From Psychromonas ingrahamii 37 (GTDB taxonomy: Bacteria; Pseudomonadota; Gammaproteobacteria; Enterobacterales; Psychromonadaceae), in NCBI RefSeq assembly GCF_000015285.1, contig NC_008709.1, positions 1,860,001 through 1,924,000 of the forward strand: 64,000 nucleotides of DNA. Reading direction: 5' to 3'. The notes under the pieces are model-generated. The model did not search any database and was not told the DNA's origin. It saw only the letters and a program-made list of their open reading frames with translations. Numbering within the stretch: position 1 is the stretch's first letter; each line of letters starts with the position of its first letter. This document shows positions 22,443 to 59,140 of the stretch, piece by piece. Position numbers and translations under genes: made by a program.

Positions 22443-22556
22443 TTATCGCGTTGAAATTTTAGAATGAACGTTTCCAGCTAACGAGATTTCTTTATTGATC
22501 ACTACTTCACTGGATTTAGATAAATCAATAGCAACTAATATCTGCTTATATCTCAT
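22443..22556 (-). pseudogene. Universal stress protein (UspA) 5' fragment A
   Basis: The ATG at 22556 is preceded by GGAAGGAAAAC. The frame reads MRYKQILVAIDLSKSSEVV and continues about 18 codons to a TAA. This is the first beta strand and helix of a UspA protein; the remaining ~110 residues are missing. The same segment appears as fragment B at 26516-26573. Confidence 0.6.
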
Positions 22557-22916
22557 GTTTTCCTTCCGATTGGCTCTACCATTCTTAATGCGTTTAAAAT
22601 AAGTTTAGCACTAATATCAACTCTTTCAGTTTTAATGGTCAAGTAAATCTGACCATTTTTATGTTTTTGTAAAGCACTCTGGGGGTGAAAGCGAGTCAGA
22701 AATCTATGGCGCATTGGGTGCGCTTTCGAGTTGATTTTCTAAGGAAGAAGGGGCATAAAAAACCTTTTTTTGTTCTCTGCGCTTGATGTACTCAACCGGT
22801 ATTGTCTATTTAACCCCTGATTTTTGTACGGTGTAATATTTTTGATTGCTTAATTCGAGTATGATTTTTCCTTTAATATGATGATTTAAAAAAGTATGAA
22901 TGGTCCTGTCTTTTTT
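22504..22916 (+). repeat. Intergenic repeat element, copy A (with uspA upstream DNA)
   Basis: About 400 bases align with 26523-26927 (copy B), from ACTTCACTGGA/TTTAGATAAATC through GGTGTAATATTTTT to the end GATTTAAAA.A.TAT. The middle (GAAAGCGAGTCAGAAAT) and end (TATGATTTAAAA...GTCCTGTCTTTTTT) match the other copies of the repeat family in this window. Confidence 0.75.
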
Positions 22917-22942
22917 GCGGAATCAAGAACCCTATCAGTATT

Positions 22943-23338
22943 TTATTGTGCTGATTGATGAACGCCGGACGGCACACTTCGCTGTAAAGCGACGGGAGAA
23001 CAATTTTTAATGGTCACTTTTCCCTGTAACAAGTTACCCTTAGAATACTCGTTAAAATGGCAGGTATTGGTTTCTGGATTATAGTTTTCAATCCACAAAT
23101 TATCGTCTTTCCAAGTTGCGGTAATATGTTGCTGACCATCGGGTACAGTAATTGACATCACACCCCCATAATGTTTTACAAAAACTTGCTGAAAATGAAA
23201 ATAGTAAGCCAGCAAACCAATAAAAAATACAATGGAACACGCAATCATGGCAGGTTTCCATTTCTTGTTCCTACCCAATAGGAAGCCCAATACAGCCATT
23301 ATCCCGATAACAACAGCCCAGTAAATATAAGTAATCAT
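22943..23338 (-). CDS. Small membrane-anchored protein of unknown function
   Basis: This 131-residue protein has two N-terminal TM helices (ITYIYWAVVIGIMAVLGFLLG and a second at ~30-50), then a ~75-residue periplasmic or cytoplasmic domain with two Cys (TCHF, KNCS). It ends PSGVHQSAQ. I chose the ATG at 23338 with GAGGAATTGAGG upstream; a TTG two codons earlier is in frame. I do not recognise the family. Confidence 0.6.
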   Translation of the reverse strand: MITYIYWAVVIGIMAVLGFLLGRNKKWKPAMIACSIVFFIGLLAYYFHFQQVFVKHYGGVMSITVPDGQQHITATWKDDNLWIENYNPETNTCHFNEYSKGNLLQGKVTIKNCSPVALQRSVPSGVHQSAQ

Positions 23339-23595
23339 CCTCAATTCCTCGTGATGGGTTTAAATTTTTCAGCTGGTTTAAGGCAGGTTAACACGTTTAA
23401 AAATCCTAGGGGTTTTATAAAATTTTGTTTTCTTTAGGCGTAGCGAAAAATATATCACGAGATTGGTTATTTGTGGATTTAGGAGTCGTGATTATTTAGG
23501 GGAAGCTGGGTAAAGCGTGGCTGTCATTCTGTAAAAGTGTTGAGAAATAGGGATTAATGTCAGTATTTCAATTCCTAATAGCGATGAAAAAGAGG

Positions 23596-23690
23596 AAAAT
23601 ATGGAAAATATGAGGTAAGCATATTGTAGATATTACGAAAAAGAACGTTTATTCTACCTATACTCTGCTCACATTTGTATAGCCGGAAAA
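23596..23690 (+). repeat. Short dispersed repeat, copy 1
   Basis: AATATGGAAAATATGAGGT followed about 30 bases later by CGTTTATTCTACCTATACTCT recurs at 27810-27900 with ~75 % identity. It is non-coding and its function is unknown. Confidence 0.5.
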
Positions 23691-23719
23691 ATGGCATAGT
23701 CAAAAGAGTGCATGATTAC

Positions 23720-24290
23720 TCATCCTAGTAGGAACGTCATGTCGACGCTACCCCCTTCAAAGTTAGTCGCGATGAGTTTGGTTTTACTATCGATCACTTG
23801 CTTGCTGACGTATTCTGGCTGTACAGGCATTTTACCTAGACCACCAATACCATCAACAATAAAGGTTGGAATGGCAGGTCCTGATCTCTTTGGGATGATT
23901 GACCTGGATATTAAGCAGAGTTACACGATTTTTTACCAATACCTGGCACAGCTCTGGCGTAATACGAGTAGGTAACTGAGCGGACAAGCGGCTGCCGATA
24001 CGCAGTATTTTCAGAACTGGCCTAGCCTGATCGTCCTTATCTATCAACTGAGTAATATAATGCGTAATACGAGGCAATGACCTTATAGACCTCACCATCG
24101 ACCAGGTTAATATTGTTAAAAACCTTGGCGAGCTGCTTATCCGTTTTAAAAGAGCGGGCTAATGTTTCGCGCCAAGGGCGATTGGCAACATCAAAGTCCA
24201 TCAATGACTGGTAGTCAGCAAATTTATCCTCTTCTTTATTCTTGGCCAGTTTAAGCGAGATATCAGGAGTATACTACTTAACTTTTATAG
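23720..24290 (-). pseudogene. Lysine 2,3-aminomutase (KamA family) remnant
   Basis: Three minus-strand pieces in two or more frames match KamA-type radical SAM aminomutases: an N-terminal part (SLMDFDVANRPWRETLAR), a middle part (VLKILRIGSRLSAQLPTRITPELCQVL and NHPKEI) and the C-terminal part (GPAIPTFIVDGIGGLGKMPVQPEYV). The Cys cluster for the 4Fe-4S centre and the region between NHPKEI and GPAIP are deleted. It is inactive. Confidence 0.65.
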
Positions 24291-24404
24291 ATATATGCGT
24301 CATGAAGGTTTACCTATAGCTGAATAAAATTTAATTATAGCAGCTAACAAGTCAGCCCTTATTTTCAACTAATCTACCCTCCGATCCGCCAATGACAATG
24401 TTGG

Positions 24405-24500
24405 ATTCGTCTTCGCTCATACTCGTCCCAAAGTGAATTTGGCTGCTGTTTTTTATTTTGTAAGGCACTATGTGGCGTTAGCGAGTTATCTTTCTGAGGC
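24405..24500 (+). repeat. Intergenic repeat element, partial copy
   Basis: CAAAGTGAATTTGG, TTTTGTAAGGCACTATG and GCGTTAGCGAGTTATCTTTCTGAGGCG align with the left part of the repeat family (compare 22640-22730 and 56495-56575). The right part is missing. Confidence 0.5.
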
Positions 24501-24566
24501 GATGTATGGACTCCACAACTCGAGCAACTAGCCTAGAGTTAGGGGAACTATTAAGGGGACCATACT

Positions 24567-24644
24567 ATGTTGAAATCTAATGTTATCGGAATCAATTTAG
24601 CTAAAAATATTCTTCAAATTTGCCATATCAATAAACAGAATTAG
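24567..24644 (+). pseudogene. IS110-family transposase N-terminal fragment
   Basis: After AAGGGGACC the frame reads MLKSNVIGINLAKNILQIC, the RuvC-like first strand of IS110 transposases (usual VIGIDLAKxxFQVC; the catalytic Asp is Asn here). It stops after 25 codons, where the IS982-like element begins. Confidence 0.6.
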
Positions 24645-25435
24645 TTAACCTGAATTAGTGATAAGAATTAAAATAAATTGAACTTAATGCCTATTTGACG
24701 ATCTGATCTTTTAACTAAAAAATCAGATATAAAAAGGGACTGACATGATTAATTTAACGGATATATTTTGTGATGTAGATGATTTTTGCAACGTTTTTAT
24801 CCCCGAGTGGGAAGCGTGTTTAATAAGCAATGGTGGGATAAAAAGACGAAGAGTCAAGTGTATGAATAATGCAGAAATAATGACAATTATCATTAGCTTT
24901 CATCAATCTCATTACAGAGATTTCAAAAATTATTACTTAGGCTATGTCGCAAGGCATTTAAAAGAATATTTCCCCTCATTACTGAGCTATACAAGGTTTA
25001 TAGAGGTTATGCCATCTGTCATCATTCCTTTGAATACCTATCTAACGACATTATTTGGCAAGCCAACGGGGATTGCTTTTGTTGACTCCACAAAATTTGC
25101 GGTATGCCATAGTATTAGAGCAAAACGTAACAAGGTTTTTAACGGAACGGCCAAGCATGCGAAAGGTAAGGATAAGTAAGTGGGATAAAGCGATGCTCAG
25201 CACACGTTATCTTATCGAAATAATTAATAATTAATAATTAATAATCAAGTGAAAAATATTTCATATGTAGAGCAAACTCGACATCTTAGTATTACTGGCT
25301 TTGCTGCAAATATGCAGAGTGGTTTAATTGCCTATTGCTTGCAAAAAGATAAGCCATCAATCAATTTAACCCCAATGAAAAAAATGTGCTGATTGGTGAA
25401 AATATTATAATGGCTTAACTCGATCTCAGGTTGAG
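24643..25435 (+). mobile_element. IS982-family element with internal deletion
   Basis: The left end AACCTGAATTAG and the right end CTCAGGTT are inverted and bracket a transposase gene lacking its middle. The true element should be about 1 kb; this copy is about 0.8 kb. It abuts the IS110 fragment, so one element probably inserted into the other. Confidence 0.5.
24745..25380 (+). pseudogene. IS982-family transposase, deleted
   Basis: The first 144 residues match IS982 transposases well (EIMTIIISFHQSHYRDFKNYY, FVDSTKFAVCHSIRAKRNKVF). The frame then ends, and after an AT-rich patch with tandem AATTAAT units the C-terminal end resumes (VKNISYVEQTRHLSITGFAANMQSGLIAYCLQ). The central part with the GDKGY region and about 110 residues is deleted. 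It cannot transpose. Confidence 0.8.
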
Positions 25436-25590
25436 TAAGCTTATCTAACGCTGTATTGATTTCCACGGCAGTAAATAAGTCCACTATCGGAATAAACGAA
25501 TGCTTCTGACGGATCAACTTTTTCTATACTTCGTTGCTCGAACGATCTCATCTTTAAACTACTTCGGTCTTTGGGCTTTAGGTATTAACT

Positions 25591-25965
25591 TCAACCAGCA
25601 CCATCTGTTTGTAACCAGCTTAGTGCCAGTTCGCGCTCCTTGTAACTAAAGTGTCGAACTTCAGCGCTAACAAAATGTTTAACTATTTTTGGCAGTATAG
25701 AGAGAATACCAATATCAGTAACCGCCGCGATCCTTTTTACTTTTTTCTCATATTGATTGATAAAACGTAAGTGTGAAACTAGCCCTGCAAAATTTTCCCA
25801 GCCAGGAAAAGATTCGGCATCAATCAATATGCCATTCAGTACAGCGTGTTTTTCAAGGTAAGGGTTAACTAATAAAGCGACCTGTTTAAAATCTTTTTTT
25901 TCCAATTTATCGACCGGTTCAACAATTAGGATCCCGTCGTTGCGCATTAACTTCGCGTTAATCAT
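25591..25965 (-). CDS. STAS/SEC14-type (SpoIIAA-like) domain protein
   Basis: This 124-residue cytoplasmic protein is of the SpoIIAA-like family (PF11964). The order is typical: an N-terminal GILIVEPVDKLEKKDFKQVA, the central GILIDAESFPGWENFAGLVSHLRFI and KVKRIAAVTD, and a C-terminal EVRHFSYKERELALSWL. Family members are small single-domain proteins, some possibly linked to membrane or stress functions, without a defined role. AGAGCATTT precedes the ATG. It is monocistronic. Confidence 0.85.
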   Translation of the reverse strand: MINAKLMRNDGILIVEPVDKLEKKDFKQVALLVNPYLEKHAVLNGILIDAESFPGWENFAGLVSHLRFINQYEKKVKRIAAVTDIGILSILPKIVKHFVSAEVRHFSYKERELALSWLQTDGAG

Positions 25966-26480: not shown

Positions 26481-26515
26481 TGATTTCTCCTGATGTCTAA
26501 AATATTTTATTAATA

Positions 26516-26573
26516 TCAAAGTACTTCACTGGAGTTAGATAAATCAATATCAACTAATATATGCTTATAGCTT
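26516..26573 (-). pseudogene. Universal stress protein (UspA) 5' fragment B
   Basis: SYKHILVDIDLSNSSEVL followed by TGA matches fragment A at 22443-22556. The position of the start codon reads ATA. Only 18 codons remain. It shows that the repeat copies A and B were duplicated together with the uspA upstream DNA. Confidence 0.55.
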
Positions 26574-26927
26574 ATTGTCTTCCTCCCGATTGGCTCTACC
26601 GTTATTAATGCGTTTAAAATAAGTTTAGCACTAATATCAACTCTTTCAGTTTTAATGGTCAAGTAAATCTGACGACTTTTTATGTTTTGTAAAGCACTAT
26701 TTGGGCGAAAGCGAGTCAGAAATTTATGGTGCATTGGGTACGCTTTCGAGTTGGTTTGCTAAGGTAGAAGGGGCACAAAACACCTTGGTTTTTACTCTCT
26801 GCGCTCGATTTACTCAACCAATATTGTCTATTTAACCTCTGATTTTTGCACGGTGTAATATTTTTAATTGCTTAATTCGAGTATGATATTTCCTTTAATA
26901 TAATGATTTAAAAGAATATAAAGTATG
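26523..26927 (+). repeat. Intergenic repeat element, copy B
   Basis: It aligns with copy A over ~400 bases, for example AATGCGTTTAAAATAAGTTTAGC and AGCGAGTCAGAAATTTATGG. It ends TAATGATTTAAAAGAATATAA, as do copies C, D and E. Confidence 0.75.
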
Positions 26928-26934
26928 TGCGTTT

Positions 26935-31946: not shown

Positions 31947-33077
31947 GTGCTTCACCTCAAAATTTTTTTAAATAATGTATTACAATAACATAAGTTAATT
32001 ACAATTTAATTGACTGCTTCGATTGAATGTAAAATTCAGTTGGTGTGAATCCACAGAAGCTCATATTATAATTAGGGTACTCCCCATCATTTTTATGCAG
32101 ATTAAGTTAATATTTTTCGCTAATCAAAATAGTGGTAAGACTCACCACTGAAGACCAGTTCACTAAAATATCTGAATGCACTTTGGCCCATAGAAAAGCA
32201 CCTAACCTAAAGACTTACGTTGTCCATACGACCTAATAATGGCGGCTTGAAGTCGGGCAATGAATTTACAGGCAACTCAGATTCTAGTGGGGAAATTTAT
32301 GTGTTACTTTTTTATGGCGAGGGGGACATAACACCTTAGCATGTTCACTCAATTTGATGCCGATTTTAATCTATTTAGCTCGCTTTGTGAAAGGGTAGGT
32401 GAGGAGGCATTATAACTATTTAGAAAATTATAATGTAGAACAATAGTTCGACTCCCCAAATCAACTGTAGGACGAGGGTCCGACCTCCCAAATTTAGAGA
32501 TACGTTAAGTCCTTCAACCCTGTCGCTTGAGCGACATTATCCTGTACGTAGATGTGTTAATAACTTGCCTATTTGAAATTTCCATTAACCACAAAGCAAC
32601 ATGGATTTTTGACTCCATTTCGTGGAGTGAATTAATTTATCTGGCTCGCTTTGGGAAAAATAGAGCGTGGTGATAGCTTGACTTTTCACTATTTAAGGCT
32701 CGAAGAGGTGGCTTAGCTTTTTGTTCTTTCATATCAATTTGAACAACCGATATTAGCTTATATGCCAGTTTTTTTGGTTGTGTATATACGTGAAAGTATT
32801 AAGGTTTAATTGATTATAGTATGATATTTATTTTAACTTTATGATTTAAAAGAATATAACTTATGGGTGCCCAGCCTTTTTGTTATGTGTAAATATTGTC
32901 TTGCAAGTGACTCTACAGGGAAGAAAATTCAATGATCATCTCGTGATTATTAGAAATTGAAATGCAAAAATACTTTATATTACTTTAAAAGCAGTTATTA
33001 TTGTCAGCATCTGATCAAAATATAAGAGATTTTAGCACAATGATGGAAATATTCTCAAACGGCAATTATCTACTCTC
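31947..33077. other. Long divergent intergenic region
   Basis: It separates putA (minus) from the M23 gene (plus). It contains repeat copy C at 32711-32881. A 6-bp stem (AGTGGT/ACCACT) near 32130 and a GTCGCT/AGCGAC stem near 32522 are present. I see no gene. Confidence 0.5.
32711..32881 (+). repeat. Intergenic repeat element, copy C
   Basis: It runs from CTTAGCTTTTTGTTCTTTC through ATATCAATTTGAACAACCGA and TATATGCCAGTTTTTTTGGTT to GATTTAAAAGAATATAA and GTGCCCAGCCTTTTT. It matches copies D, E and F closely. A weaker left part may begin near 32640. Confidence 0.75.
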
Positions 33078-34522: not shown

Positions 34523-35941
34523 TAATGCCGATCAGTTAAGAAAAATCTATTGATTTTTAGCTGAATGAGATCAAAATCCGATTTTCACTTAACATCGGAT
34601 TTTTTTATACCTTTAGATTATGATTTCCACTCTCTTTCTACTTTCTGCCCTAAAAATTTTCATTCATTATCAGAAGTACTGTCCCCTGATTTAATTGATA
34701 CTTGCCTTAAAGAATCAGGCGTCGTTACCCTAAAAAAGCGTCGATTATCCGTATAAATGATGGTCTGGAGCGTTATTGGCATGTCTATTTTTAGACACTT
34801 ACCGATAAGCGATATCGTTAATCAGCTTGACATTATGCTACCGGGAAAACGACCATTTTGCCTCGTGCCGTTGTTCAAGCAAGGCAACGGCTAGAGGCAG
34901 ATGTTGTAAAACGTATTTTTAATTAAACTCAACAGCTATCGCATGAAAAAACACCTTCTCCTACTTTTTGTGGTTTGAAACTGCTTGGAGTCGATGGTGT
35001 TGTTTGGCGCACACCTGATACCAAAGAAAATGAAACTGCTTTTGGGAAGTTACATAACAACAAGCGCGGGTTTGCTCATCCACAAATTCGAATGGTATGT
35101 CAAATGGAGTTTTATTAGCTGACTCTTCATTTGATAAAGTAGCTACTAATGAGATGAATTTGGCTGCCGATTTAATCCCTTCCACACCCAAAAATTCATT
35201 AACTTTATTTGACAAAGGCTTTTATTCTCTCGGGCTATTAAATAAATGGATGAATACAGGTATAGAACCCCATTGGCTGATTCCTTTGAAAAAAGGAACA
35301 CAATTTGAAACGGTTAGAAAATTCAGTGGGCGAAACCAAATAATACGTTTAAAAACAACACCACAAGTAAAACGAAAATGGGTTGATTTACCCGATACTA
35401 TCGAAGCTCGTTCAGTGAAACGCATCATTAAAGGAAAGTCGTACTCAATTCTCACCTTGATGACAAACCTACTACGATATCCTGTTGAAAATATTGCTGA
35501 TTTATATCCTCATTGTTGAAAAATCGAGTTAGGGTTTAGAGAAATGAGTTAGGGTTTAGAGAAATGAAACAGTATATGCTTAAAAACCAACTAACATTAA
35601 AAAGCAAAAAACCAGAAATGGTGGAGCAAGAATGATGGGGTGTTTTACTCTCGTATAATTTAATTCGTTTTCAAATGGCCAGAATGGCACATAGTTTAAA
35701 AAGAAGTAATACCCTATCAGCTAAGTTTTAACCGCGCCCGGGCTTATGAGTTAGCGATGTTACCGTTTGTATCTCTGGGAAAAATACCTAAGGTAATTAA
35801 TGGATTGATTGATATGCCGGAAGCCTTTGTATTACCAGAGCGGCGGGAAAGAGCTTACCCAAGAACAGTTAAAGCAAGACCCAAAAGATACTCAGAGAAA
35901 AAAGGTAAAAATGCCTATCAGCTCTTAACTGACAGGCATTA
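34523..35941 (+). mobile_element. Decayed IS4-family element
   Basis: The ends TAATGCCGATCAGTTAAG (34523-34540) and CTTAACTGACAGGCATTA (35924-35941) are inverted repeats matching at 16 of 18 bases. Between them an IS4 transposase lies in several frames: MVWSVIGMSIFRHLPISDIV, LLGVDGVVWRTPDTKENETAFG, ADSSFDKVATNEMNL, TLFDKGFYSLGLL, KQYMLKNQLTLKSKKPEMVEQE, ending ERRERAYPRTVKARPKR. There are several frameshifts and at least two stops, and a piece near the YxxRWxIE motif is deleted. It is inactive, and the left end is shared with the fragment at 48760. Confidence 0.8.
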
Positions 35942-41092: not shown

Positions 41093-41970
41093 GGCGTGTT
41101 GATCTTTCGAGTATGATTTTTAAACAGCATGGTAAAGCGTTATAATTTATTTCGCCAAAAACTAACTACAACACTAAACCATGCCTAGATTAATGTTAAC
41201 TGATAAACGATGGGAAATGCTACTTCATTTAATGAAAAGCACAGGTCGTATTTATAATAAGCCAGAGCACAGGAATACTTTTGAGGGAATTCTCTATCGA
41301 CTTAGAACGGGTATTCCCTGGCGAGATTTACCCAAAGAGTTTGGTGGCTGGAGTAGTATCTTCAGGCGTTTTAACCTTTGGTCTAAGAAAGGTATTTTAT
41401 CCTACCTATTCAAAGAGTTAGCAAAGGATTCCGATTTTGATTGGGTGTTTATAGATGGTTCAATCATTCGTGCTCATCAACATAGTACAGGTGCAGCTAC
41501 AACAGATAGCGAATGTATAGGTAAAAGTCGTGGCGGTAACGCTACAAAAATTTATCTCGCGGTAGATAGCAATGGTTTCCCTATTTATTTTGAACTATCG
41601 GAAGGTCAAAGAAACGATATAACACATGCTCAAAGTTTAGTAGAGCATACCTGTCAGGCTAAAATAGTGATTGCAGATAAAGGGTACGATAGTGATATAT
41701 TTAGGGCGTTTATTGAATCGGAAGGGATGGAATCAGTTATCCCTAAACGGAAATATAACGGTGAAAAGCAAAAAGATGTTGATTGGTGCCTATATAAATA
41801 TCGCCATTTAGTAGAGAATGCATTTGGCCGCATAAAGCATTTTCGTTCTATATCAACCAGATATGACAAGTTGGCTAGAAATTATGCCAGCATGGTATCA
41901 CTGGCATTTATGATGATGTGGTTACCGATGTATTGTTGAGTGTATTTTATACAGCAAAGATCAACACGTC
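41093..41970 (+). mobile_element. Intact IS5-family insertion sequence (IS427-like)
   Basis: This 878-base element has ends GGCGTGTTGATCTTT and AAAGATCAACACGTC, inverted with one mismatch in 15. CTAG flanks it on both sides (41089-41092, 41971-41974), a plausible 4-bp target duplication. It contains one full transposase gene. A relic of its left end occurs at 13113. Confidence 0.85.
41181..41939 (+). CDS. IS5-family transposase
   Basis: This 252-residue DDE transposase is complete. The N-terminal DUF4096-like region is FEGILYRLRTGIPWRDLPKEFGGWSS. The catalytic triad is Asp92 (FIDGS), Asp166 (ADKGYDS) and Glu212 (VENAFGRIKHFR). It is in a single frame, without the programmed frameshift used by some IS427 relatives. 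It fills its element, starting 88 bases from the left end. It is likely still active. Confidence 0.93.
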   Translation: MPRLMLTDKRWEMLLHLMKSTGRIYNKPEHRNTFEGILYRLRTGIPWRDLPKEFGGWSSIFRRFNLWSKKGILSYLFKELAKDSDFDWVFIDGSIIRAHQHSTGAATTDSECIGKSRGGNATKIYLAVDSNGFPIYFELSEGQRNDITHAQSLVEHTCQAKIVIADKGYDSDIFRAFIESEGMESVIPKRKYNGEKQKDVDWCLYKYRHLVENAFGRIKHFRSISTRYDKLARNYASMVSLAFMMMWLPMYC

Positions 41971-42249
41971 CTAGTGATATTCATTGTAAAATCTTTTTTG
42001 TCTTTCGCATTTGTAGTAATGCACTCTTAATTATAGTCAATACTACAAGTGTTGTGGTTGAGTGATTTTGGCCACAAGTTTGTAAGTCGTGGGGGCAAAT
42101 GACTTTGCTCAAAGTGTGACATTATCGAGATAGCTTTTTGGGGCAATGTTTGATGCGTTCAATGATTGCAATAGATACAGCGTTTTCAAATGTTTATCAT
42201 AGGTGAACATATATAGCGGTAAAATGGGATAAATATTGTATAGAGAGCG

Positions 42250-42457
42250 TTTGCGAGTTAGCTTTCTAAGTCGCTTCGGGGCACGTTGCACCTTAGCTTT
42301 TTGTTCTTTAATATCAATTTGAACAACTGATATTAGGTTATACAACAGTTTTTGGGGTGTGGGTGTACGTGGTAGCATCAAGGTTTAATTGATTAGGGTA
42401 TAATATTTGTTTTAACATAATGATCTAAAAGAATATAAGATATGTCCAGCCTTTTTT
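42250..42457 (+). repeat. Intergenic repeat element, copy D
   Basis: It contains TTGCGAGTTAGCTTTCTAAG, ACCTTAGCTTTTTGTTCTTT, ATATCAATTTGAACAACTGA, AAGGTTTAATTGATTAG and ends ATCTAAAAGAATATAAGATA and GTCCAGCCTTTTTT. It ends ~40 bases before the marC stop codon. Confidence 0.8.
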
Positions 42458-42496
42458 CAGTAGTGCAGCTTTGCCGTATCCGGTTGAATAAGTTTG

Positions 42497-43129: not shown

Positions 43130-44319
43130 TGGATTTTTGTCCGGTTATTGCCCTCTAACGAGGCTGTATAAATTCTCCATTTGTAGGGGAAATATACTTT
43201 TAATAAATGTTATCGTCTTTTTTAAAACAACGTGTTAAAAAGTTAATTTTTTCGGAAATTTATAAAAAGTGAGTTATTATACCGCCTATCGTGGTAGAGC
43301 GATCTTTTACCAGACATACCTCACTCAGATTTTGAGGTGCGGAATTAACGCATCCGCCTCTTCAGTTACTATTCACTCATGTAAAACATGGCTAGTACCA
43401 GTAAACTTCCATATTTCGCTTTCTGAGTATCAGTACCTTAATTTCAAAATACGTTTGTATCTTATTGAAATAAAAATAATTATAACTTCGCCGACCACTT
43501 CGCTTATTCAACTACTTGTACAGTGTATGCAAAAAAAATTGTATAATGCGATCAGCTTAGACTGTTATCGGGTAATCCAAAGTTATTTTTAAATCCTAGC
43601 AGTTTTTGTTTTTATTGTGGTAACCACTCTCTCAATTTCAGTGATCGTTGCGCTTTTATCCATTGGTAATATTCGAACAGCGTAGCTTTCTGTTTCTTAA
43701 CAGTATTTTTTCTTCTGAGTCTCGCTTTACCATTGGCATATGTTCTCCCCTGTGCCTTAAATAGTGAAAATTTAAGCTATCGCCGCGCTCGCTTTCTTTC
43801 AAGACCTAGCGTCGTAGGGCCCACGTGAATTTGGCCATGGTTTTCTTGTCTTATAAGTCACGATCGTGGAGGTGGGGGTAGCGAGTTAGATTTTTGAGGT
43901 GCAAAGGGCACATAGCTCCTTAGCTTTTTGTTCTTTTATACCAATTTGAACAATCGATATTAGCTTATATGCCAGTTTTTTGGTTGTGGGTATACGCGGT
44001 AGTATTAAAGTTTTATTGATTAGAATATAATATTTATTTTAACGTGATGATTTAAAAAAATATAAGGTATGGGTATCCAGCCTTTTTTTTGAAGCTAATG
44101 CGTTTTAGTCATATTGACTCTAGTTAACTGTTAATATTGAATAGATCATTTCTATGTGTTATTTGAATAAAATAACTTTAAAAAATTGGCCGTTCCAAAA
44201 CCTTAAAAATTAAATGATAATTTTAACCTCTCACACTTTTTCCAGAACCCTTATGTATGTGGCGCACTCATTAATTGCGCGTTTACAATAAAATCATAAT
44301 TAAAAAGGAAGGGTAAAGT
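43130..44319. other. Long intergenic region
   Basis: It contains repeat copy E (43785-44090). A minus-strand open tail at 43600-43750 (ANGKARLRRKNTVKKQKATL) is unrecognised. A 107-codon plus frame at 43269 has no ribosome site and unusual composition, and is not called. Confidence 0.45.
43785..44090 (+). repeat. Intergenic repeat element, copy E
   Basis: The longest copy with both halves: the left CGCGCTCGCTTTCTTTCAAG, GTGAATTTGGCC and TTATAAGTCACGATCG, then TAGCGAGTTAG, CCTTAGCTTTTTGTTCTTTT, TATGCCAGTTTTTTGGTTGT, and the right end GATTTAAAAAAATATAAGG and GTATCCAGCCTTTTTTTT. Confidence 0.75.
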
Positions 44320-45368: not shown

Positions 45369-45371
45369 TAT

Positions 45372-48759: not shown

Positions 48760-49245
48760 GAGTTAAGAAAAATCTATTGATTTTTAGCTGAATGAGATCA
48801 AAATCCGATGTTCACAAGATATCGGATTTTTATGCAACTTTCTTCAGCCCTATCTCAATTATCAGCTAATAATTTCACTGAATTTACTGCGCTCAATGAA
48901 CTAGTAGACCAAGATTTAGCCTCGAACTAGACCAAGATTTAGTCTCGAACGCACTCTCCCAAGCTGGTGTCACCACCATTAGAAAGCGTAAGTTACCGAT
49001 GGAGAAAATGGTCTGGGCTGTTGTTGGAATGGCACTTTTTCGTAAATACTCGATGCGTCAGTTAGTCAATCAACTTGATATTATTCTTCCTAATGGCGAG
49101 CCTTATGTTGCATCAAGTGCAGTAACACAAGCACGGAAGAAACTGGGCTATCAAGCAATTGAATCTATCTCCAATCAAACACAATCATTGTGGCATGAAA
49201 AGTCAGAGCACCCAATGTGGTGTGGCCTTTCACTCTTAGGGGGTG
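48760..49245 (+). pseudogene. IS4-family transposase, N-terminal fragment
   Basis: The left end TTAAGAAAAATCTATTGATTTT and what follows equals that of the element at 34523. From ATG 48832 the product reads MQLSSALSQLSANNFTEFTA; a 23-bp tandem duplication (48905-48950) shifts the frame, and after it the sequence continues LRKRKLPMEKMVWAVVGMALF... to MWCGLSLLGGD. The catalytic domain is missing. Confidence 0.75.
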
Positions 49246-50313: not shown

Positions 50314-50941
50314 TTATGCAACGAGTAATATTTCTCTGAATGTTGAGAGCTGATAATAGCTAAAATTGAATAGTGTAATTAAGAAGCGCTAGATCTTTAA
50401 TTTTGAGTTTTAGGAAACCAGATCTAATCATCAGGTCCAAGGTTAAATATTTAACGAATAGCACACAAATTTTTTAGGTTGTTGAGTTGGTTTAGGCTCA
50501 TTTACAAATTGATTTTTAAGGCGCTATGGGAGCGTTTACACCTTAGAAATTTTACTTTATTAACCTGTTGAATTACCTCATTTACGCGCGCTTTCTCCCA
50601 ATATCGAACGTAAATGCATCGGAGCTCTGAATATAGTCTCCGATAAAAAACAATATTTGCTCTGCTGCTTTAAGATCAACATCCATTGACGGGTTACTTT
50701 TTTGATTTGATGATGAAACAGTTATTTACATAAGAAAAATCACTATTTGCCATAACTGGTATTTTGTGAATGTTGTGAAAATTTTCTATTTAAGGTGTTT
50801 TGTTGACCTTTCGTGCGATTGTTGCATTATTTTTTTGATTATTTGTTGTCTTTTTATGGCTCGGTACCAAAATAATGGTTATGCTTAATGGTTATGCTAG
50901 TTGCTTAATAGCTAAACGAGATAACGACACAAGGGACTAAA
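50314..50941. other. Intergenic region with a repeat relic
   Basis: At 50515-50620 there is a copy of the left part of the repeat family (TTTAAGGCGCTATGGGAGCG and ATTTACGCGCGCTTTCTCCC). At 50802-50835 GTTTTGTTGACCTTTCGTG loosely resembles the IS5 left end. No gene is visible. Confidence 0.45.
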
Positions 50942-52774
50942 ATGAACCGTAATAATCTGAAAAGCAGTCTAGCAGAACTAGTCAACACTGAATTTTCCCT
51001 TCAAAATGAAGAAAATAATAAATGGGCAGTAGAGCTGGCCATTGCTAACAGGAAGCTTGCTTTTCAAAATGAAGAGAAGGATAAACGAGCAGCAGAGCTG
51101 GATATAGCCAACAAGGAGCTTGCTTTTCAAAACGAAGAGAAGGATAAACGGGCAGCAGAGCTGGTCATTGCTAACAGGAAGCTTGCTTTTCAAAATGAAG
51201 AGAAGGATAAACGAGCAGCAGAGCTGGATATTGCCAACAAGGAGAAGGATAAACGGGCAGCAGAGCTTGCCATTGCGAACAAGGAGCTTGCCTTTCAAAA
51301 CGAAGAGAAGGATAAACGGGCAGCGGAGCTTGCCATTGCCAACAAGGAGCTTGCCTTTCAAAACGAAGAAAAAAGTAAACGTGCAGCAGAGCTTGCCATT
51401 GCCAACAAGGAGCTTGCCTTTCAAAACGAAGAAAAAAGTAAACGGGCAGAAGAGCTCAATGACCTCGCCTTCTATGATGCGCTTACCGGCTTGCCCAATA
51501 GACGTATTTTGATAGACCGGCTGCATCACGCATTATCGTCCAACGTGCGTCAAGGCTTTGAGAGTGCGGTGATGTTTATTGATTTGGATCATTTCAAGGA
51601 TATCAACGACACCCTCGGCCATGAAGTGGGTGATTTACTGCTGATACAGATAGCGCAACGCCTGGAGTCCTGTCTACGCAAATGCGATACCGTGGCGCGT
51701 CTGGGTGGGGACGAGTTTGTGTTGATTCTGGAAAACCTGGACCAAAAAACCATTGAAGCCGCAGCCAAGGCGAATTTCATTGCTGATAAAATTTTTGCTG
51801 CGCTCAACAAACCTTACCAGCTCGATATGCACGAATGCTACAGCACTGTGAGTATCGGTTTGGCCTTTTTCGGCCACGAGGGTAAGACAGCAGAAGGTCT
51901 GCTGAAACAAGCCGACATCGCCATGTATCAGGCCAAAAAAGCCGGCGGCAATACAATGAGGTTCTTTAACCAGAAAATGCAGGACATCATTAACGTACGG
52001 ACAAGCCTCGAACATGAATTGCGTATTGCAGTTGCAAAGTCGCAATTTAATTTGTATTACCAAATTCAAATGGATAGTTCCAACCGAGTATGGGGGGCCG
52101 AAGCATTGATCCGTTGGGTGCACCCTGAACGCGGGCTGGTGTCACCTGCCACCTTTATCCCTCTGGCGGAAGAAACCGGATTAATTCTGCCTATTGGGCA
52201 ATGGGTTATAGAGACGGCTTGTGCGCAGATCAAAATATGGCAGAAAGAGTCGCTGACCCGCGACTTGACACTGTCAGTAAACGTGAGTGCAAAACAATTC
52301 CGGCAGACGGATTTCGTGGATCAAGTGCAGTCAGCTGTGCGCCGACATGCTATTTCCGCAAATTTACTCAAGCTGGAATTGACCGAAAGTTTGTTCCAAG
52401 AGGACATCAAAGTCACCATTGCCACCATGAACGCATTAAATAATATTGGCATTCAGTTCTCTCTAGACGACTTCGGCACTGGCTATTCGTCCTTACAGTA
52501 CCTCAAGCAGCTACCGCTCGACCAGATCAAGATAGACCAGTCGTTCGTGCGCGATATTGCGATAGATAGTAATGACAGAGCGATAGTAAAGGCAATCATT
52601 GCTATGGCACACATTCTGAAGATAGACGTCATTGCCGAGGGAGTGGAAACGGAAGAGCAACGACAATTACTCTTAGGCAAAGGATGCTCATTCTTCCAAG
52701 GGTATTTATTTAGCAAACCGATACCTATTGAGCAGTTTGAAGCGTTAATCCGTAGTGGTTCAGAGTTTAATTGA
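50942..52774 (+). CDS. Diguanylate cyclase/phosphodiesterase (GGDEF-EAL) with N-terminal 21-residue repeats
   Basis: This 610-residue cytoplasmic protein makes and/or breaks cyclic di-GMP. The N-terminus (about 20-175) is a coiled coil of seven near-identical 21-residue units (NEEKDKRAAELAIANKELAFQ), three heptads each; the fourth is shortened by 7 residues. The GGDEF motif at 255-259 is intact (RLGGDEFVLIL). The EAL motif at 387-389 is intact (GAEALIRWVHP), with DDFGTGYSSL and KIDQSFV following. There is no sensor or TM domain; the coiled coil may set dimer form. AAGGGACTAAA precedes the ATG. Both active sites appear functional by sequence. Confidence 0.93.
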   Translation: MNRNNLKSSLAELVNTEFSLQNEENNKWAVELAIANRKLAFQNEEKDKRAAELDIANKELAFQNEEKDKRAAELVIANRKLAFQNEEKDKRAAELDIANKEKDKRAAELAIANKELAFQNEEKDKRAAELAIANKELAFQNEEKSKRAAELAIANKELAFQNEEKSKRAEELNDLAFYDALTGLPNRRILIDRLHHALSSNVRQGFESAVMFIDLDHFKDINDTLGHEVGDLLLIQIAQRLESCLRKCDTVARLGGDEFVLILENLDQKTIEAAAKANFIADKIFAALNKPYQLDMHECYSTVSIGLAFFGHEGKTAEGLLKQADIAMYQAKKAGGNTMRFFNQKMQDIINVRTSLEHELRIAVAKSQFNLYYQIQMDSSNRVWGAEALIRWVHPERGLVSPATFIPLAEETGLILPIGQWVIETACAQIKIWQKESLTRDLTLSVNVSAKQFRQTDFVDQVQSAVRRHAISANLLKLELTESLFQEDIKVTIATMNALNNIGIQFSLDDFGTGYSSLQYLKQLPLDQIKIDQSFVRDIAIDSNDRAIVKAIIAMAHILKIDVIAEGVETEEQRQLLLGKGCSFFQGYLFSKPIPIEQFEALIRSGSEFN

Positions 52775-52839: not shown

Positions 52840-53000
52840 GCCATGCGAAAGCGAATTAGTTTTCTAAGGCGGTTTGGGGGCGTTAGCGACTCTGCTTTTA
52901 GGGCGAAAAGGAGCAGAAACCGCCATAGAGCTTTTGCTCTATTAATTTTTTATACACTCCATTTACGCTCGCTTTCTCCCAATACCGAGTGTAAAAGTCT
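52840..53000 (+). repeat. Intergenic repeat element, copy H
   Basis: GCGAAAGCGAATTAGTTTTCTAAGGCGG and ATTTACGCTCGCTTTCTCCC match the left half of the family; there is also a GGGCGTTAGCG stretch. It follows the GGDEF-EAL gene. The right half is missing. Confidence 0.55.
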
Positions 53001-53613: not shown

Positions 53614-53749
53614 GGTTTCTCCAGAAGGGAAAAAATTTGGTGTCCTCTAACGTCTGCAACAACGGCACTTAGGATCGATGCTGTTTTTGCTAGCTTTTTG
53701 TTTTTGCAAAGACCGCGACAAGACCAAAGCGTCCGATTGCTTGGACTTG

Positions 53750-54478: not shown

Positions 54479-54697
54479 GACGAGCATGAGCGTGTCGTGT
54501 CAGTTTCATTCAAAAATATTGAAGATAACTTTCGTCTAAAAAGTGTGATGTTAGGGGAGGATATTGTTGAAATTTCTGATAAATAAAATAAATATGTTCT
54601 GGATATGAGGCGTGTAGACAAAGAAGATATAAATAAATTAGAAGTAATATTGAAGAAAATGAAGTTTGATAATAGGTTCACCATAGGCCGTGTCTAG
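54479..54697 (+). pseudogene. Unrecognised C-terminal fragment with an in-frame TAA
   Basis: The frame DEHERVVSVSFKNIEDNF ... EDIVEISDK[TAA]NKYVLDMRRVDKEDINKLEVILKKMKF lacks a start; a TAG precedes it. The last codons overlap the start of repeat copy F. It appears to be the tail of a lost gene. Confidence 0.4.
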
Positions 54698-54817
54698 CAA
54701 GTTAGCTTCCTAGGGCGGAAAGGGGCACATAGCGGCTTATTTTTTTGTTATTTAATCTCAATTTGAACAACCAATATTAGCTTATATGCCAGTTTTTTGG
54801 TTGTGGGTATACGTGGT
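54695..54817 (+). repeat. Intergenic repeat element, copy F (truncated)
   Basis: AGCAAGTTAGCTTCCTAGGGCGG, GGGGCACATAG, AATTTGAACAACCAATATTAG, TATATGCCAGTTTTTTGGTTG and GGTATACGTGG match copies D and E. The right third (ending GAATATAAGG) is missing. Confidence 0.7.
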
Positions 54818-54854
54818 GTGGTTAACAAAAAGACAAAACGCGATCCTATTGGTA

Positions 54855-55637
54855 CTATTGGTATTTAAGCCCTATTTCATGTACATAACAGGGATATTGT
54901 TTTTGCTGATTATCAACAAAACCAAAATCTAAATGAAATGAAACTACAGGATTATCAGATGGAGTTTCAGATATAAGTGAACCATCTGGCGAAAAAGCAA
55001 ACCCTTTGCCACCAAAGATTAATTTATTGCCACACTTTCCTACGCGATTTGCGCTAACAACATAGCAGCCAGAAACAATTGCGGCCATTGCCACTGCTGT
55101 TTTCCAACGCTCAAAGCCTTGCTCAGAAGCCCTTGGTATAACAATAAGATGAGCATCTTGGCTTCGATAAGATCTTGCCCATTCATTGAACATCAACTCT
55201 GTACACAAAAGAAAACCAACATTTAATTTATCGGTTTTGATTACATCAAAGCCTGTTCGTCCAGTACGGAACCAAGCCGTCTCATAAAACCCAGATTCTT
55301 CGGGAAAGTAATGTTTTTGGTGTGCGAATCTATATTCGCCATTTACTAGAGCAAATGCTTCATTAGCCAATTTATTGTCAACTGGAACCGGCCGAGATGA
55401 AAGAACAATAGGAATATTAAGCTTTTTCAATGCATCTACACTATAATTGTGCGCTGAAATAGATGCTTCTGCATCTGCTGTATTAAATTCGTTTTCTACA
55501 GCAAGCCAACTTCCAAAAGGCATCTCGTTGGTAACTAAAACCTCTGGTTTTTCTGAAATTATTTGTTGTTTCAATTCTTCCCATTTCGTTCCTTCATGCA
55601 ACAATCCTTCAGGTGACTCAATGTAAGTGATTTTCAT
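54855..55637 (-). CDS. Carbon-nitrogen hydrolase (nitrilase superfamily)
   Basis: This 260-residue enzyme hydrolyses a non-peptide C-N bond. The catalytic Glu-Lys-Cys triad is Glu38 (TNEMPFG), Lys108 (HQKHYFPEES) and Cys145 (LLCTELMF). I use the ATG at 55637 with TTTGGAGAG upstream; a TTG five codons earlier is less likely. The substrate is unknown. The gene is divergent from an Lrp-type regulator gene 234 bases away, which probably controlled it; that regulator is broken. Confidence 0.85.
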   Translation of the reverse strand: MKITYIESPEGLLHEGTKWEELKQQIISEKPEVLVTNEMPFGSWLAVENEFNTADAEASISAHNYSVDALKKLNIPIVLSSRPVPVDNKLANEAFALVNGEYRFAHQKHYFPEESGFYETAWFRTGRTGFDVIKTDKLNVGFLLCTELMFNEWARSYRSQDAHLIVIPRASEQGFERWKTAVAMAAIVSGCYVVSANRVGKCGNKLIFGGKGFAFSPDGSLISETPSDNPVVSFHLDFGFVDNQQKQYPCYVHEIGLKYQ

Positions 55638-55870
55638 CTTATTACTCTCCAAATTTAGATGCTTTGATCAGGCTATGGATAAGCTTCTTGTAATAAAGAA
55701 GCAATGCACAAGTGATATTGTAATGTATTGAGCCAGTAATACAGATAGGCAAGTCGCCAGCATTAACCAGGGATTCGTCGTTTATGCTGTTGAATCGACA
55801 CAGAACCCGACAGATATGTCATACTATCTATTTCCCGTAGTGAGATACATGTTTAGCGCTAAGTGATTCT

Positions 55871-56290
55871 ATGGATAATTTAAATCAAAAAATTCTAGCC
55901 TGTCTCAGTGATGACGCTCGGCAATCTAATGCGGAGATAGCAAGAAAGGTAGGACTGTCACGAAGTGCCGTCTCAGAGCGTATTCACAAGATGGAAGATC
56001 AGCAGATGATCTTAGGGTATCGCGTTGAGCTTAAATCACCAGAAAGCAAGGTTGCAGCTTATTTTTAATTGTCCTTTGATCAGAGTTGCTGCGATGAGAT
56101 CTAAGCTCTTATACGGTCTTATTGGGAGATTCGAAGCTTTCATAGTACCTCTGGTGAGGTGGATATGATGATATTTGCAGAAGCAGAGGGAATAGCTGAA
56201 TTGAACAATCTACGAAACCACCTTGAACAATTACCTAAACTGACTCGAATTATCACTCACTCCGTATTAGAAGAGCGTATTCGGAGATAG
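55871..56290 (+). pseudogene. Lrp/AsnC-family regulator interrupted by two in-frame TAA
   Basis: An uninterrupted frame of 140 codons carries TAA at 56066 and 56102 and no shift. The N-terminal helix-turn-helix is intact (MDNLNQKILACLSDDARQSNAEIARKVGLSRSAVSERIHKMEDQQMI), and the C-terminal ligand domain follows the stops (FHSTSGEVDMMIFAEAEGIAEL ... THSVLEERIRR). It is divergent from the nitrilase gene. The intact HTH fragment of 65 residues might still bind DNA. Confidence 0.75.
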
Positions 56291-56386
56291 TCGTTCTTTT
56301 GACAAGAACTAACTTGCAGCCAGCTTGTATCGCAATATATGACTCGTTACAATCTGTATCATAACACTTGTTTTACGTAACGTCTG

Positions 56387-56416
56387 AAGGCTACCTGCTA
56401 AAATGGTAGCCTTTTT
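56387..56416 (+). terminator. Rho-independent terminator after the regulator gene
   Basis: AAGGCTACC pairs with GGTAGCCTT across a nine-base loop and ends in six T. It is a strong, typical terminator. Confidence 0.85.
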
Positions 56417-56459
56417 TGTATCTATCATTTTTTATGAGTTTTTTAACGGAGAAGGTTGA

Positions 56460-56725
56460 TCGTATTATGCACGCTTTTTCCCGATTCCGAGCGTGGTAGT
56501 GTCGAAGTGAAATTGGTCACTGTTTTTTTGTGAGTCGTTAAGGGGGCGAAAGCGAGTTAGGTTTCTAAGTCGCAAAACGTCTCTGCCTTTTATTCTTGAA
56601 TCTAAATTTACTCAAAACAGACAAAGTGAAAGCGAGTTAGGTTTCTAAGTCGCAAAACGTCTCAGCCTTTTATTCCTGAATCTAAATTTACTCAAGACAG
56701 ACAAGGTGAAAGCTCTATTTAAAAA
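56460..56725 (+). repeat. Intergenic repeat element, copy I, with an 80-bp tandem repeat
   Basis: The left part (GCACGCTTTTTCCCGATTCC, GAAGTGAAATTGGTCACTG, AAAGCGAGTTAGGTTTCTAAG) belongs to the family. From ~56551 an 80-base unit occurs twice (AGCGAGTTAGGTTTCTAAGT at 56551 and 56631), with a third start near 56706. Confidence 0.7.
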
Positions 56726-56736
56726 ATTATTTTTCA

Positions 56737-58191
56737 TTACGTACCACAAAAAGTATGATAACCCTTATCGCCGTCTACAGGAAAATCCTGATAATTTACG
56801 GTGGTAGGTATCTCAAAATAAGGCGAACGTAAAACGCTGAGAAAGTCATCTGCTGCAACGGCAGTACCACTGTCTTCACAGGCTTTTAGAACGGCCTCGA
56901 CGTGATGATTCCTGGGGATAACAAGCGGATTTTTTTCTTTCATCAATAAGCGTGAACACTCAATCGTATCTGCTGATTGCTCCAGGCGCCCCCTCCAGGC
57001 AATGTACCAATCCCCGAGGTTTTTCTGTGATTTTTCAGCAGCCACGTCATCATCAAGGGACTGTGTCAACATGCTAAAAGTTTGCGTATAGTCTAATTTC
57101 TTTGCCTGCATTACTTCCATTAGCTCTAGAATAAAATCCTGATCGCTCAGCGCAAAATCCGTCATTCCGAGCTTACTACCCAGCATCTTGAAATAACTAT
57201 TTTGAAAGCGATCAGTAAACGTTTTGAGTAACGGTTCTAAGCTGGCAATAGCCGCGTCTTGCTCACTGTTAATGAGTGGCAACAGGCATTCTGCGAGCCG
57301 AGTAATATTCCATAGAGCAATATTGGGCTGATTACCAAAAGCGTATCGACCCTGAGTATCAATTGAGCTATACACGGTCCCTGGGTCATAGGCGCCCATC
57401 ATTGCGCAGGGCCCAAAGTCAATGGTTTCACCGGAGATAGCGCTGTTGTCCGTGTTCATCACACCATGGATAAAACCAACTCGCATCCACTCGACAATCA
57501 AAGTAATTTGCTTTTCCATCACCGCATCAAGAAAATCAAGCTCGAGGTCCTCACCATCGGAACTAATCTCTGGAAAATGACGCTCGACGGTGTAAGCCAA
57601 TAAAGCTCTCAACGACTCTGTATCTTTTCTGATAGCAAAGTACTGAAACGTTCCTACGCGGATATGGCTTGCAGCAACCCGGGTGACAACAGCTCCCGGT
57701 CTGCCTCTTTCTCGATAAACGGTCTCCCCTGTCGCTACCACCGACAAGCAGCGTGATGTGGGCACACCTAAATAGTACATCGCCTCACTCATGATAAATT
57801 CACGCAAGGCAGGGCCTAATGCACAACGACCATCACCCTGCCTCGAAAAGGGTGTGGGACCTGAGCCCTTTAACTGGATATCAACGCGATGGTTGCTGCT
57901 ATCCATTAACTCACCGAGTAGATGTGCACGACCATCACCCAATTGCGGATTGAGCTGGCCAAATTGATGCCCACTGTAAGCTAAAGCAATACTCTCCGCG
58001 CCCTCGGGCAACTGATTTCCAGAAAAAATATGGGCTTTTAAATCAGAATCGCTGAGTAAAGCTGCACCCAAGCCCAGGCTTTCAGCGAGCTTATCATTCC
58101 AGATCAGTAATTTGGGCTGGGCAACAGGCAGCGGTAAAACACGCTTAAAAAACGCATCACCGAGCTGGGCATAAGTATTAGTAAATTTCAT
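56737..58191 (-). CDS. selO: SelO family protein adenylyltransferase (YdiU)
   Basis: This 484-residue pseudokinase transfers AMP from ATP to Ser/Thr/Tyr of target proteins. Motifs are typical: SIALAYSGHQFGQLNPQLGDGRAHLLGE, DIQLKGSGPTPFSRQGDGRCALGPALREFIMSEAMYYLGVPTSR, and the metal-site region HGVMNTDNSAISGETIDFGPCAMMG. The C-terminus ends FCGT, where Cys replaces the Sec of animal SelO. It is monocistronic, and the IS66 remnant begins 9 bases from its start on the other strand. The ribosome site is weak. Confidence 0.93.
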   Translation of the reverse strand: MKFTNTYAQLGDAFFKRVLPLPVAQPKLLIWNDKLAESLGLGAALLSDSDLKAHIFSGNQLPEGAESIALAYSGHQFGQLNPQLGDGRAHLLGELMDSSNHRVDIQLKGSGPTPFSRQGDGRCALGPALREFIMSEAMYYLGVPTSRCLSVVATGETVYRERGRPGAVVTRVAASHIRVGTFQYFAIRKDTESLRALLAYTVERHFPEISSDGEDLELDFLDAVMEKQITLIVEWMRVGFIHGVMNTDNSAISGETIDFGPCAMMGAYDPGTVYSSIDTQGRYAFGNQPNIALWNITRLAECLLPLINSEQDAAIASLEPLLKTFTDRFQNSYFKMLGSKLGMTDFALSDQDFILELMEVMQAKKLDYTQTFSMLTQSLDDDVAAEKSQKNLGDWYIAWRGRLEQSADTIECSRLLMKEKNPLVIPRNHHVEAVLKACEDSGTAVAADDFLSVLRSPYFEIPTTVNYQDFPVDGDKGYHTFCGT

Positions 58192-58199
58192 AATTCATC

Positions 58200-58770
58200 A
58201 TGTGTCATTGCTGGAAAAAAGAAAAGCCAATCGTTAGGCTGCCAAGGATACACCCTTCTATGCGCACAAGGTTAGATTTATTACTGCTTATCGTTAATTT
58301 GCTTTGCCATCGCCTTGGGCTCAACAGTCGCAATAGTAGTAAGCCACCATCAAGTGATCCGAACAGAGAAAAATCACCAAAAAATAACAGTTCAAATAAA
58401 ACGAGCGGACAAAAAGGTCATAATGGATCAACACTGGAACGTGAGATAGATCCAGATATCACCCATAAATCACCTGTCGATACAACTCTCTCGCCCAAAG
58501 GGCATTATAAAAAAGTGGGTTATGAAACACGTCAAGTTGTTGATATTGAATTTCAACGCATTGTCACTCAATATCAGGCTCAAATATTTGAAAATTAATT
58601 TGGAAAACGCTTTACCACCCCTTCCCTGATGGTGTTAATAGTCAAATTCAATACGGTAATGGCGTTAAGGCGCATACGGTGTACCTCTCGTAATATCAGT
58701 TACTGCCTTATGAACGTATTCGTGAATACTTCACCGACCAATTAGATATCCCCCTGAGCAGTGTCACAAA
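58200..58770 (+). pseudogene. IS66-family transposase remnant
   Basis: From 58300 the frame reads GLNSRNSSKPPSSDPNREKSP and GQKGHNGSTLEREIDPDI, then TLSPKGHYKKVGYETRQVVDIE, all N-terminal IS66 transposase features. After a stop at 58598 other frames continue QFGKRFTTPFPDGVNSQIQYGNGVKAHTVYLS and QLLPYERIREYFTDQLDIPLSS. The DDE domain and both accessory genes are absent. Confidence 0.75.
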
Positions 58771-58934
58771 GGCAGCATGAGCCGTGATGACGTACTGAAA
58801 TATAAGGACAGCTACAAGGTAGCTGCTTCTTCTTTCTCAAACCAGAGTGCAGGTGGAGCCTGTCTTCTCGACTAACCTTTTAATCACTATGGCCCAAGCT
58901 GATAAACTGTTGTGGCTAAGTTAAATTGGCTAGA

Positions 58935-59140
58935 ACCTTAGCTTTCTCGGGCGCAAAGGGGTACAAACCGCCTTATTTTTTATTCTCTAATCTGAATTTC
59001 TTAATTAATATTGACATATCCTTGCCATTTACTGACCGTAATGTGTTTTTATATTAATTTTTATTTAAGTAGGGGATGATGTTTCTTTAATATTTTGATT
59101 TGAAAGGATAAAAGGTATGGATGTCCTGCCTTTTCTTTTC
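58935..59140 (+). repeat. Intergenic repeat element, copy G
   Basis: ACCTTAGCTTTCTCGGGCGC, GGGGTACAAACCGCCTTATTTTTTATTCT and the right end GATTTGAAAGGATAAAAGG and ATGTCCTGCCTTTTCTTTT follow the family plan. The middle differs from the other copies. Confidence 0.6.

Follow-up and report, generated by a model that had tools for sequence, protein, structure and literature searches.

Intergenic repeats of Psychromonas ingrahamii 37 follow the direction of replication and probably descend from elements bearing the end mark of a RAYT/TIRYT-like transposase

Why should a family of long intergenic repeats read in one direction, whichever way the neighboring genes point? The question is raised by a 64,000-nucleotide stretch of Psychromonas ingrahamii 37 (positions 1860001-1924000, + strand, within the complete genome of 4,559,598 bp), here called the window and numbered from its first letter, in which an initial annotation made from the letters alone had described repeats between 22504 and 59140. 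We favor the explanation, at a probability of roughly 0.6, that the repeats are decayed, non-autonomous elements resembling repetitive extragenic palindromes (REP) and terminal inverted repeats (TIR), and that a Y1 (HUH) transposase of the RAYT/TIRYT kind has as its terminal mark TGGRTGTCC, the hairpin tip in their right-hand module. On this explanation the right-hand block, R, would close with a small hairpin that bears the conserved tip; the tip would be recognized by a transposase family of that kind, which this genome has and which is common among Psychromonas; the elements would have been mobilized in trans on the lagging-strand template; and decay together with recombination among four modules (L, X, M and R) would have produced the present mosaic. 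A family recognized by a Y1/HUH enzyme should orient with replication and ignore genes, and the observed pattern matches this.

The repeat family is real, with copies of 120-420 bp that resemble one another in profile matches across the window. Module L is a hairpin, CTAAGGCGC..GCGCCTTAG, with a T run after it and related hairpin units on its left side; X is a palindrome, TTTACGCTCG..CGAGCGTAAA; M is the region around ACAACC..GGTTGT; and R, of about 75 bp, terminates in AAGGTATGGRTGTCCAGCCTTTT, with the right end of the repeat reading AAGGTATGGRTGTCC. The copies in the window are as follows:

3695..3830, minus strand: partial copy (part of M, plus R), found by profile outside the interval annotated initially
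22503..22922, plus strand: copy that begins with a uspA-like 5' fragment (22503-22556, reading minus), followed by the left block and R
24438..24510, plus strand: fragment of the left block, recognized by eye
26522..26931, plus strand: copy 85-90% like 22503-22922, with R ending inside the tail
32301..32434, plus strand: diverged partial copy, found by profile
32673..32884, plus strand: copy with L, M and R, found by profile
42244..42458, plus strand: copy with L, M and R and a shortened tail, found by profile
43786..44090, plus strand: fullest copy, with part of X (43786-43812), L (43886-43928), M (43929-43996) and R (44012-44084)
50511..50613, plus strand: part of the left block, then X (50560-50613), found by profile
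52850..52996, plus strand: X (52949-52994) and two L matches
54695..54825, plus strand: copy with L and M that ends before R, found by profile
56526..56707, plus strand: left-block hairpin units, including an 80-bp tandem pair (56548-56627 and 56628-56707)
58928..59138, plus strand: copy with L and R; no other family copy of the window keeps an exact TGGRTGTCC tip, here at 59118-59126

Similar intergenic copies were present, with adjusted coordinates, at all eight sites where full copies had been proposed. Two of the three proposed partial copies (50511-50613 and 52850-52996) were likewise recovered by profile, whereas the one near 24405 was seen by eye only and matched no profile at E≤0.01, and the copy at 32301-32434 had been missed. 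Within the window, GTGTCCAGCCTTTTTT occurred 4 times at up to 2 mismatches (0.05 expected) and AAAGCGAGTTAGGTTTCTAAGG 3 times at up to 3 mismatches (0.00 expected), and the same family profiles gave 0 matches when the window was reversed without being complemented. Two of the copies, at 22503 and 26522, share 85-90% identity across about 400 bases and form a single segmental duplication; the first 54 bases of each, on the left, resemble the start of a minus-strand uspA-like gene. Profiles recovered M in 4 copies of the window, R in 7 (the minus-strand copy among them) and X in 3 plus-strand matches, with a weak minus-strand X match at 20547-20580, outside the initial interval. A census of 1.23 Mb of the genome (1,227,809 of 4,559,598 bases, chosen in part because copies were there) gave 35 L, 15 X, 6 M and 14 R matches, together with 15 matches to a second repeat family, B. 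These counts indicate that the modules occur apart as well as together; the shared order of blocks described initially therefore stands as one recurrent arrangement, L-M-R, and not as a constant companionship.

We then consider the right end, where TGGRTGTCC appears to be more than a feature of this family. The tail TGGNTGTCC, followed by a T-rich stretch, closes several otherwise unrelated repeats in the genome and its relatives, and family-B copies having an intact right end finish with the same kind of tail. Of 394 genomes of the order, 7 contain the tail in its strict form, and 6 of these 7 are among the 24 genomes of the genus. A 23-base exact piece of R was found, in a named genome collection that may leave out the window's own genome, only in Psychromonas sp. 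MB-3u-54 (5 stretches); among viral contigs a 21-mer had no exact match and the transposase described below no relative.

The same motif flanks transposase genes. A transposase of 314-331 residues is annotated in many Psychromonas, and TGGRTGTC(C) lies inverted upstream of its gene in 10/10 Psychromonas loci (at 70-73 bp in 9 and 124 bp in the tenth) and direct, downstream of the stop codon, in 7/10, compared to a background of 0.007 occurrences per 150 bp. These counts are by locus (our loci carry L numbers; L087, L145, L314, L315 and L317 matched under two queries and were counted once); they leave out the frameshifted L278 and the partial transposases of L120, L152 and L248, and L290 offers 72 bases downstream at most. 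The final 15 bases of R, in the form GGATGTCC, are identical to the transposon end of locus L283. In this genome a 326-residue gene (2804614-2805594, minus strand) lies in the neighborhood of a tail at 2.804 Mb and scores 40.3 bits with NCBIfam REP_Tyr_transpos (cut-off 80) and 19.9 bits with Pfam Y1_Tnp (cut-off 23); it belongs to a sister type with the tip TGGGTGG, which is found upstream in 7/7 and downstream in 6/7 loci of that type. Among the 8 records of other genera considered (of 15 in a named plasmid collection), homologous genes have the motif on both sides in 3, from Aeromonas caviae and two Pseudoalteromonas, and on one side in 2 (upstream in Shewanella decolorationis, downstream in Saccharobesus litoralis). 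Based on these flanks, TGGRTGTC(C) appears to serve a Y1 (HUH), RAYT/TIRYT-like transposase as its terminal motif.

In a profile search with six transposases, REP_Tyr_transpos matched 6/6 and Y1_Tnp 5/6, below the curated cut-offs among the matches listed. The modeled fold resembles IS608, ISDra2, IS200 and the RAYT structure 4er8, and a search of PDB sequences with the transposase profile gave no true match. The sub-cut-off scores and the low-confidence fold suggest that the associated transposase is a Y1 (HUH) enzyme of the RAYT kind. The initial annotation saw no transposase, which the window contradicts, since it holds a relic of one; the relic and a family-B copy lie to the left of the main repeats:

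13831..13917, plus strand: copy of family B, tail absent, found by profile
15658..15783 (genome 1875658-1875783), plus strand: RAYT-like transposase gene fragment (42 residues, 52% identity, E 5e-7)

The letters on either side of the motif are consistent with a hairpin whose tip, not its stem, is conserved. The arms flanking TGGNTGTCC differ between families yet match each other (AAAAGAT..ATCTTTT and AAGG..CCTT, for example). In a set of 128 non-redundant occurrences of the motif, which includes chance ones, matched arms had a mean duplex energy of -3.27 compared to -2.79 for re-dealt arms, and 1 of 500 re-dealings reached the matched value. The sequence immediately beyond the TGTCC end is duplicated in short tandem at the transposon ends of L270, L277, L278, L284 and L285, and likewise at the R tails of L042, L050 and L247; these may record repeated cutting at the end.

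Orientation was then compared with replication. Up to 2.34 Mb, 31 of 34 stretches have a positive GC skew, and beyond that point 19 of 27 have a negative one, which places the origin near 0 and the terminus near 2.3-2.4 Mb. Full-profile matches in the window were plus in 13/14 cases, the other being a minus match at 3699-3851, so that the proposal that all copies read plus holds within 22504..59140 and not for the whole window. Genome-wide, 51 places, spread over both strands, matched a sequence-only model at E≤0.1, and of the 43 at E≤0.01, 38 agreed with the replichore, reading plus in the first part and minus in the second (p=0.0024 when whole clusters were flipped at random). These 43 places fall into 17 clusters, 13 in agreement with the replichore and 1 tied. 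Under the same cluster-flip test agreement was 43/51 at E≤0.1 (p=0.008) and 17/19 for the strongest places (p=0.013), and by module it was 26/35 for L, 12/15 for X, 6/6 for M, 13/14 for R and 12/15 for B. The tail pattern TWTGGRTGTCC, with 25 places in the genome versus 4 control matches, agreed in 20 (cluster-flip p=0.011). Orientation across the genome is thus neither fixed nor random, and flips with the replichore.

Genes do not account for this direction. At the 30 of the 51 places with fetched flanks, none of the copies lay inside an open reading frame (ORF) of at least 100 residues, as the intergenic placement proposed initially would have it; the nearest upstream ORF pointed the same way in 17 and the opposite way in 12 (one place has none), and the nearest downstream ORF in 18 and 12, respectively. 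Repeat direction tracks replication, and the direction of neighboring genes is no predictor of it. The argument that a shared direction speaks against ordinary random insertion is supported in this changed form, with the replichore as the reference. Fork geometry suggests that the strand bearing TGGRTGTCC would be the lagging-strand template, and Y1/HUH transposases, as described in part of one source, act on single-stranded DNA and favor the lagging-strand template at forks (PMC6006769). Transposase genes and fragments are themselves co-oriented with replication in 8/9 cases in the sampled DNA of this genome and, among the matches listed, at 7/8 places in the relative G022, whose complete contig C1 (3,590,786 bp) has its origin near 2.9-3.0 Mb and its terminus near 1.2 Mb as estimated from the skew of 20 stretches. 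Since 458 of 736 ORFs (62%) lie on the leading strand anyway, the orientation of transposase genes is by itself modest evidence (p=0.019).

Several observations weigh against the transposase-derived explanation. In the examined part of the genome, the transposase of matching type that was found, at 2070434, carries two stops; among the loci examined no autonomous element shares the whole 75-bp R block; and the left end of the copies has no inverted motif, with minus-strand TGGNTGTCC nowhere in the window. The structure model is poor (pLDDT 55.9), and the motif pattern was not found in the homologues of Catenovulum, Vibrio and Photobacterium (3/8 records outside the genus). Disagreement with the replichore amounts to 5/43 places, 5/25 tails and 9/35 L matches, and clustering cuts the independent evidence to the 17 groups given above. 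No clean empty site was found among 149 relative loci, where the differences lie inside family B; one 262-bp difference (L141 versus L031) was not counted as an empty site because its flanks, 75-81% identical, are themselves L and X repeats. As for whether the copies are parts of one known insertion sequence or miniature inverted-repeat transposable element with terminal repeats, the right end does carry a transposase motif, and an inverted left partner was not found. The single exact tip in the window, with the remaining family tails mutated or cut even though the R consensus ends in the motif, and the lack of an intact matching transposase suggest that the family is old and decayed, and this genome has a repeat copy upstream of an Hsp70-like gene in common with two relatives; the mostly damaged tails of the window, together with the absence of an intact same-motif transposase in the examined part, suggest that it is probably immobile today. 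A non-autonomous element nevertheless remains the best supported of the options raised initially, because the right end carries the Y1/HUH terminal motif.

Of the other explanations the one that survives best, which we regard as unlikely, holds that local duplication and homologous recombination alone spread the repeats, the tail being an old insertion target or remnant and the polarity a product of a few oriented clusters. The gathering of 43 places into 17 clusters favors it, as do 40 evenly spaced stretches of the genome with almost no family matches, the origin of the 22503 and 26522 copies as a single duplicated segment, the position of species-to-species breakpoints within the left block, and the want of a clean empty site in the loci compared. 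However, polarity persists at the cluster level (p=0.0024), and the R block and tail stay joined at distant places, on both replichores and in other species.

We consider it less probable again that the repeats are terminators or regulatory repeats, with the L and R-tail hairpins and their T runs acting as intrinsic terminators. These would have been duplicated along with the DNA around them, and their orientation would follow leading-strand genes. T runs do stand after both hairpins, two tails of this type, at 2.813 and 2.815 Mb, are found directly behind the stop codons of co-directional genes, and the leading strand holds the excess of ORFs already described (458/736). In contrast, 12 of 29 upstream ORFs point the opposite way, including both neighbors of the 22503 and 54695 copies, and the tail brackets transposase genes in inverted order, which a terminator need not do. 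The whole repeat also lacks a covarying fold: RNAalifold predicted 0 pairs on the 16 long copies as a set, L, X and R gave no consensus fold alone, and one copy folded as DNA was not better than shuffles (z -1.0). The hairpin proposed for ACAACC and GGTTGT fared better in part, since M alone gave a small hairpin in 6 sequences in which the two pair, nearly without covariation, while no such pair emerged from the 16 long copies. Rfam had no match at E 0.5 in window 22000-60000, and with no consensus fold of the whole repeat, a structured RNA family, and with it the RNA module suggested initially, is left without support. The only Rfam match, outside the repeat interval, is a c-di-GMP-I riboswitch aptamer at 7279-7369 (plus strand, 68.3 bits).

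To the same low degree we credit one-ended, fork-coupled transposition, in which a Y1 RAYT-like enzyme would need only the 3' TGGRTGTCC hairpin and would carry along variable DNA lying 5' of it, taken from the lagging-strand template. If this is true, unrelated bodies (families A and B, others, and the uspA piece) would share only the tail and a direction fixed by the replichore, and the process would be a bacterial counterpart of the one-ended capture of Helitron or IS91.

A retro-transposed small RNA is very improbable. Such an RNA, with a promoter-like stretch in R and a terminator-like T run, would have been reverse-transcribed, truncated at its 5' end and inserted at forks; several copies that appear to keep the right end and lack different lengths on the left would fit, as would tandem short tails such as those of L042, but the tail marks both ends of DNA transposons and left-only copies are as frequent as right-only ones. 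That the repeats are attC sites of a large chromosomal integron, and hence the recombination sites suggested initially, is hardly tenable: an integron integrase is encoded at genome 1711251-1712198 (minus strand; 447.6 bits, cut-off 265), but the distance to it is about 150 kb, the cassette ends next to it look unlike the repeats by eye, the family profile had no match at 1.70-1.86 Mb (all 17 matches of that search fell at 1.863-1.937 Mb), and the family occurs far away too, on both replichores. A few cassettes adjoin this integrase, and a family-B tail lies at its 3' end.

Other mobile or repeated DNA accompanies the repeats. An IS4/IS5-type DDE transposase (41181-41939, plus strand) adjoins the 42250 copy, and a stretch that includes it has a counterpart of 97% identity in the relative G021. 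Directly left of the 43785 copy, the segment 43288-43748 is also present in several relatives, some of which have it more than once; it has no Rfam match at E 1 and looks like a remnant of another mobile element. Comparison of L137:10770-15596, from this genome, with G021:C117:39072-41342 gave about 3.3 kb extra in the former between two units common to both. The extra DNA comprises a MarR gene and a glutamate-synthase-like one, and its borders fall close to B repeats and tails; gene-sized segments thus appear to come and go between tails. Elsewhere in the window, nine overlapping 215-nucleotide repeat copies at 21/42/63-nucleotide spacing (50885-51519) lie within a 610-residue ORF, and an 81-nucleotide repeat pair, 89% identical and 14 kb apart, occupies 34534-34614 and 48761-48841.

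How does this family compare to known systems? The literature searched on Psychromonas intergenic repeats, TIRYT, RAYT and REP, in the parts of the sources consulted (including PMC2405808), does not describe it, and a search for GGGTGTCC together with transposase gave nothing relevant by title. The closest system is TIRYT/TIRtron, in which RAYT-like genes are flanked by inverted repeats other than GTAG REPs, and the same repeats are dispersed singly or in groups; the main text of that paper, as far as consulted, makes no mention of Psychromonas (PMC3733652). The Psychromonas transposase genes likewise lie between inverted repeats of a type other than GTAG REPs, whereas the ends read TGGRTGTC(C) in place of GGGGWSAS and the dispersed repeats are long, mosaic and bear the motif at one end only (compare PMC3733652). 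With RAYT/REP, BIME and REPIN systems, as the consulted parts of PMC2817692 and PMC3116915 present them, the family shares a Y1 transposase, small palindromes, intergenic placement and clustering, and tandem REP arrays have been reported to run forward at about 2 Mb and in reverse at about 4 Mb (PMC3116915). Unlike those systems, its hairpins have no GTAG at the foot and keep their conserved letters at the tip, and its units are 120-420 bp and not inverted pairs (PMC2817692, PMC3116915); neither a GTAG nor a GGAG-type tag stands at the hairpin foot in the R consensus.

Compared to IS200/IS605 elements (IS608, ISDra2) and their non-autonomous relatives, the likeness lies in HUH/Y1 chemistry, end hairpins, the lagging-strand template and direction relative to replication, again as given in part of PMC6006769; the transposase differs, with 314-331 residues and a Pfam Y1_Tnp match below cut-off. 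Ends of IS200 were tried and rejected as a source, the 11 PF01797 places of the genome and their flanks having no family match beyond one chance match, and the IS200-like PF01797 genes of four relatives do not carry the tail. As the motif differs and the repeats are longer and one-ended, we do not file them as GTAG REPs, integron sites or IS200 derivatives. Judged by sequence, they seem to be TIRYT/RAYT relics, a kind already known; their end motif and one-ended anatomy were not found in the literature searched. The one-ended anatomy raises a testable question of how Y1 transposases move non-autonomous DNA, and if the favored explanation is right, mobility that was coupled to replication forks could be read from the polarity of repeats. 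The comparison would link orphan intergenic repeats, through a short and searchable end motif, to a widespread and little-studied transposase family, for which a homologue search returned at least 8000 scored candidates at E≤1e-10.

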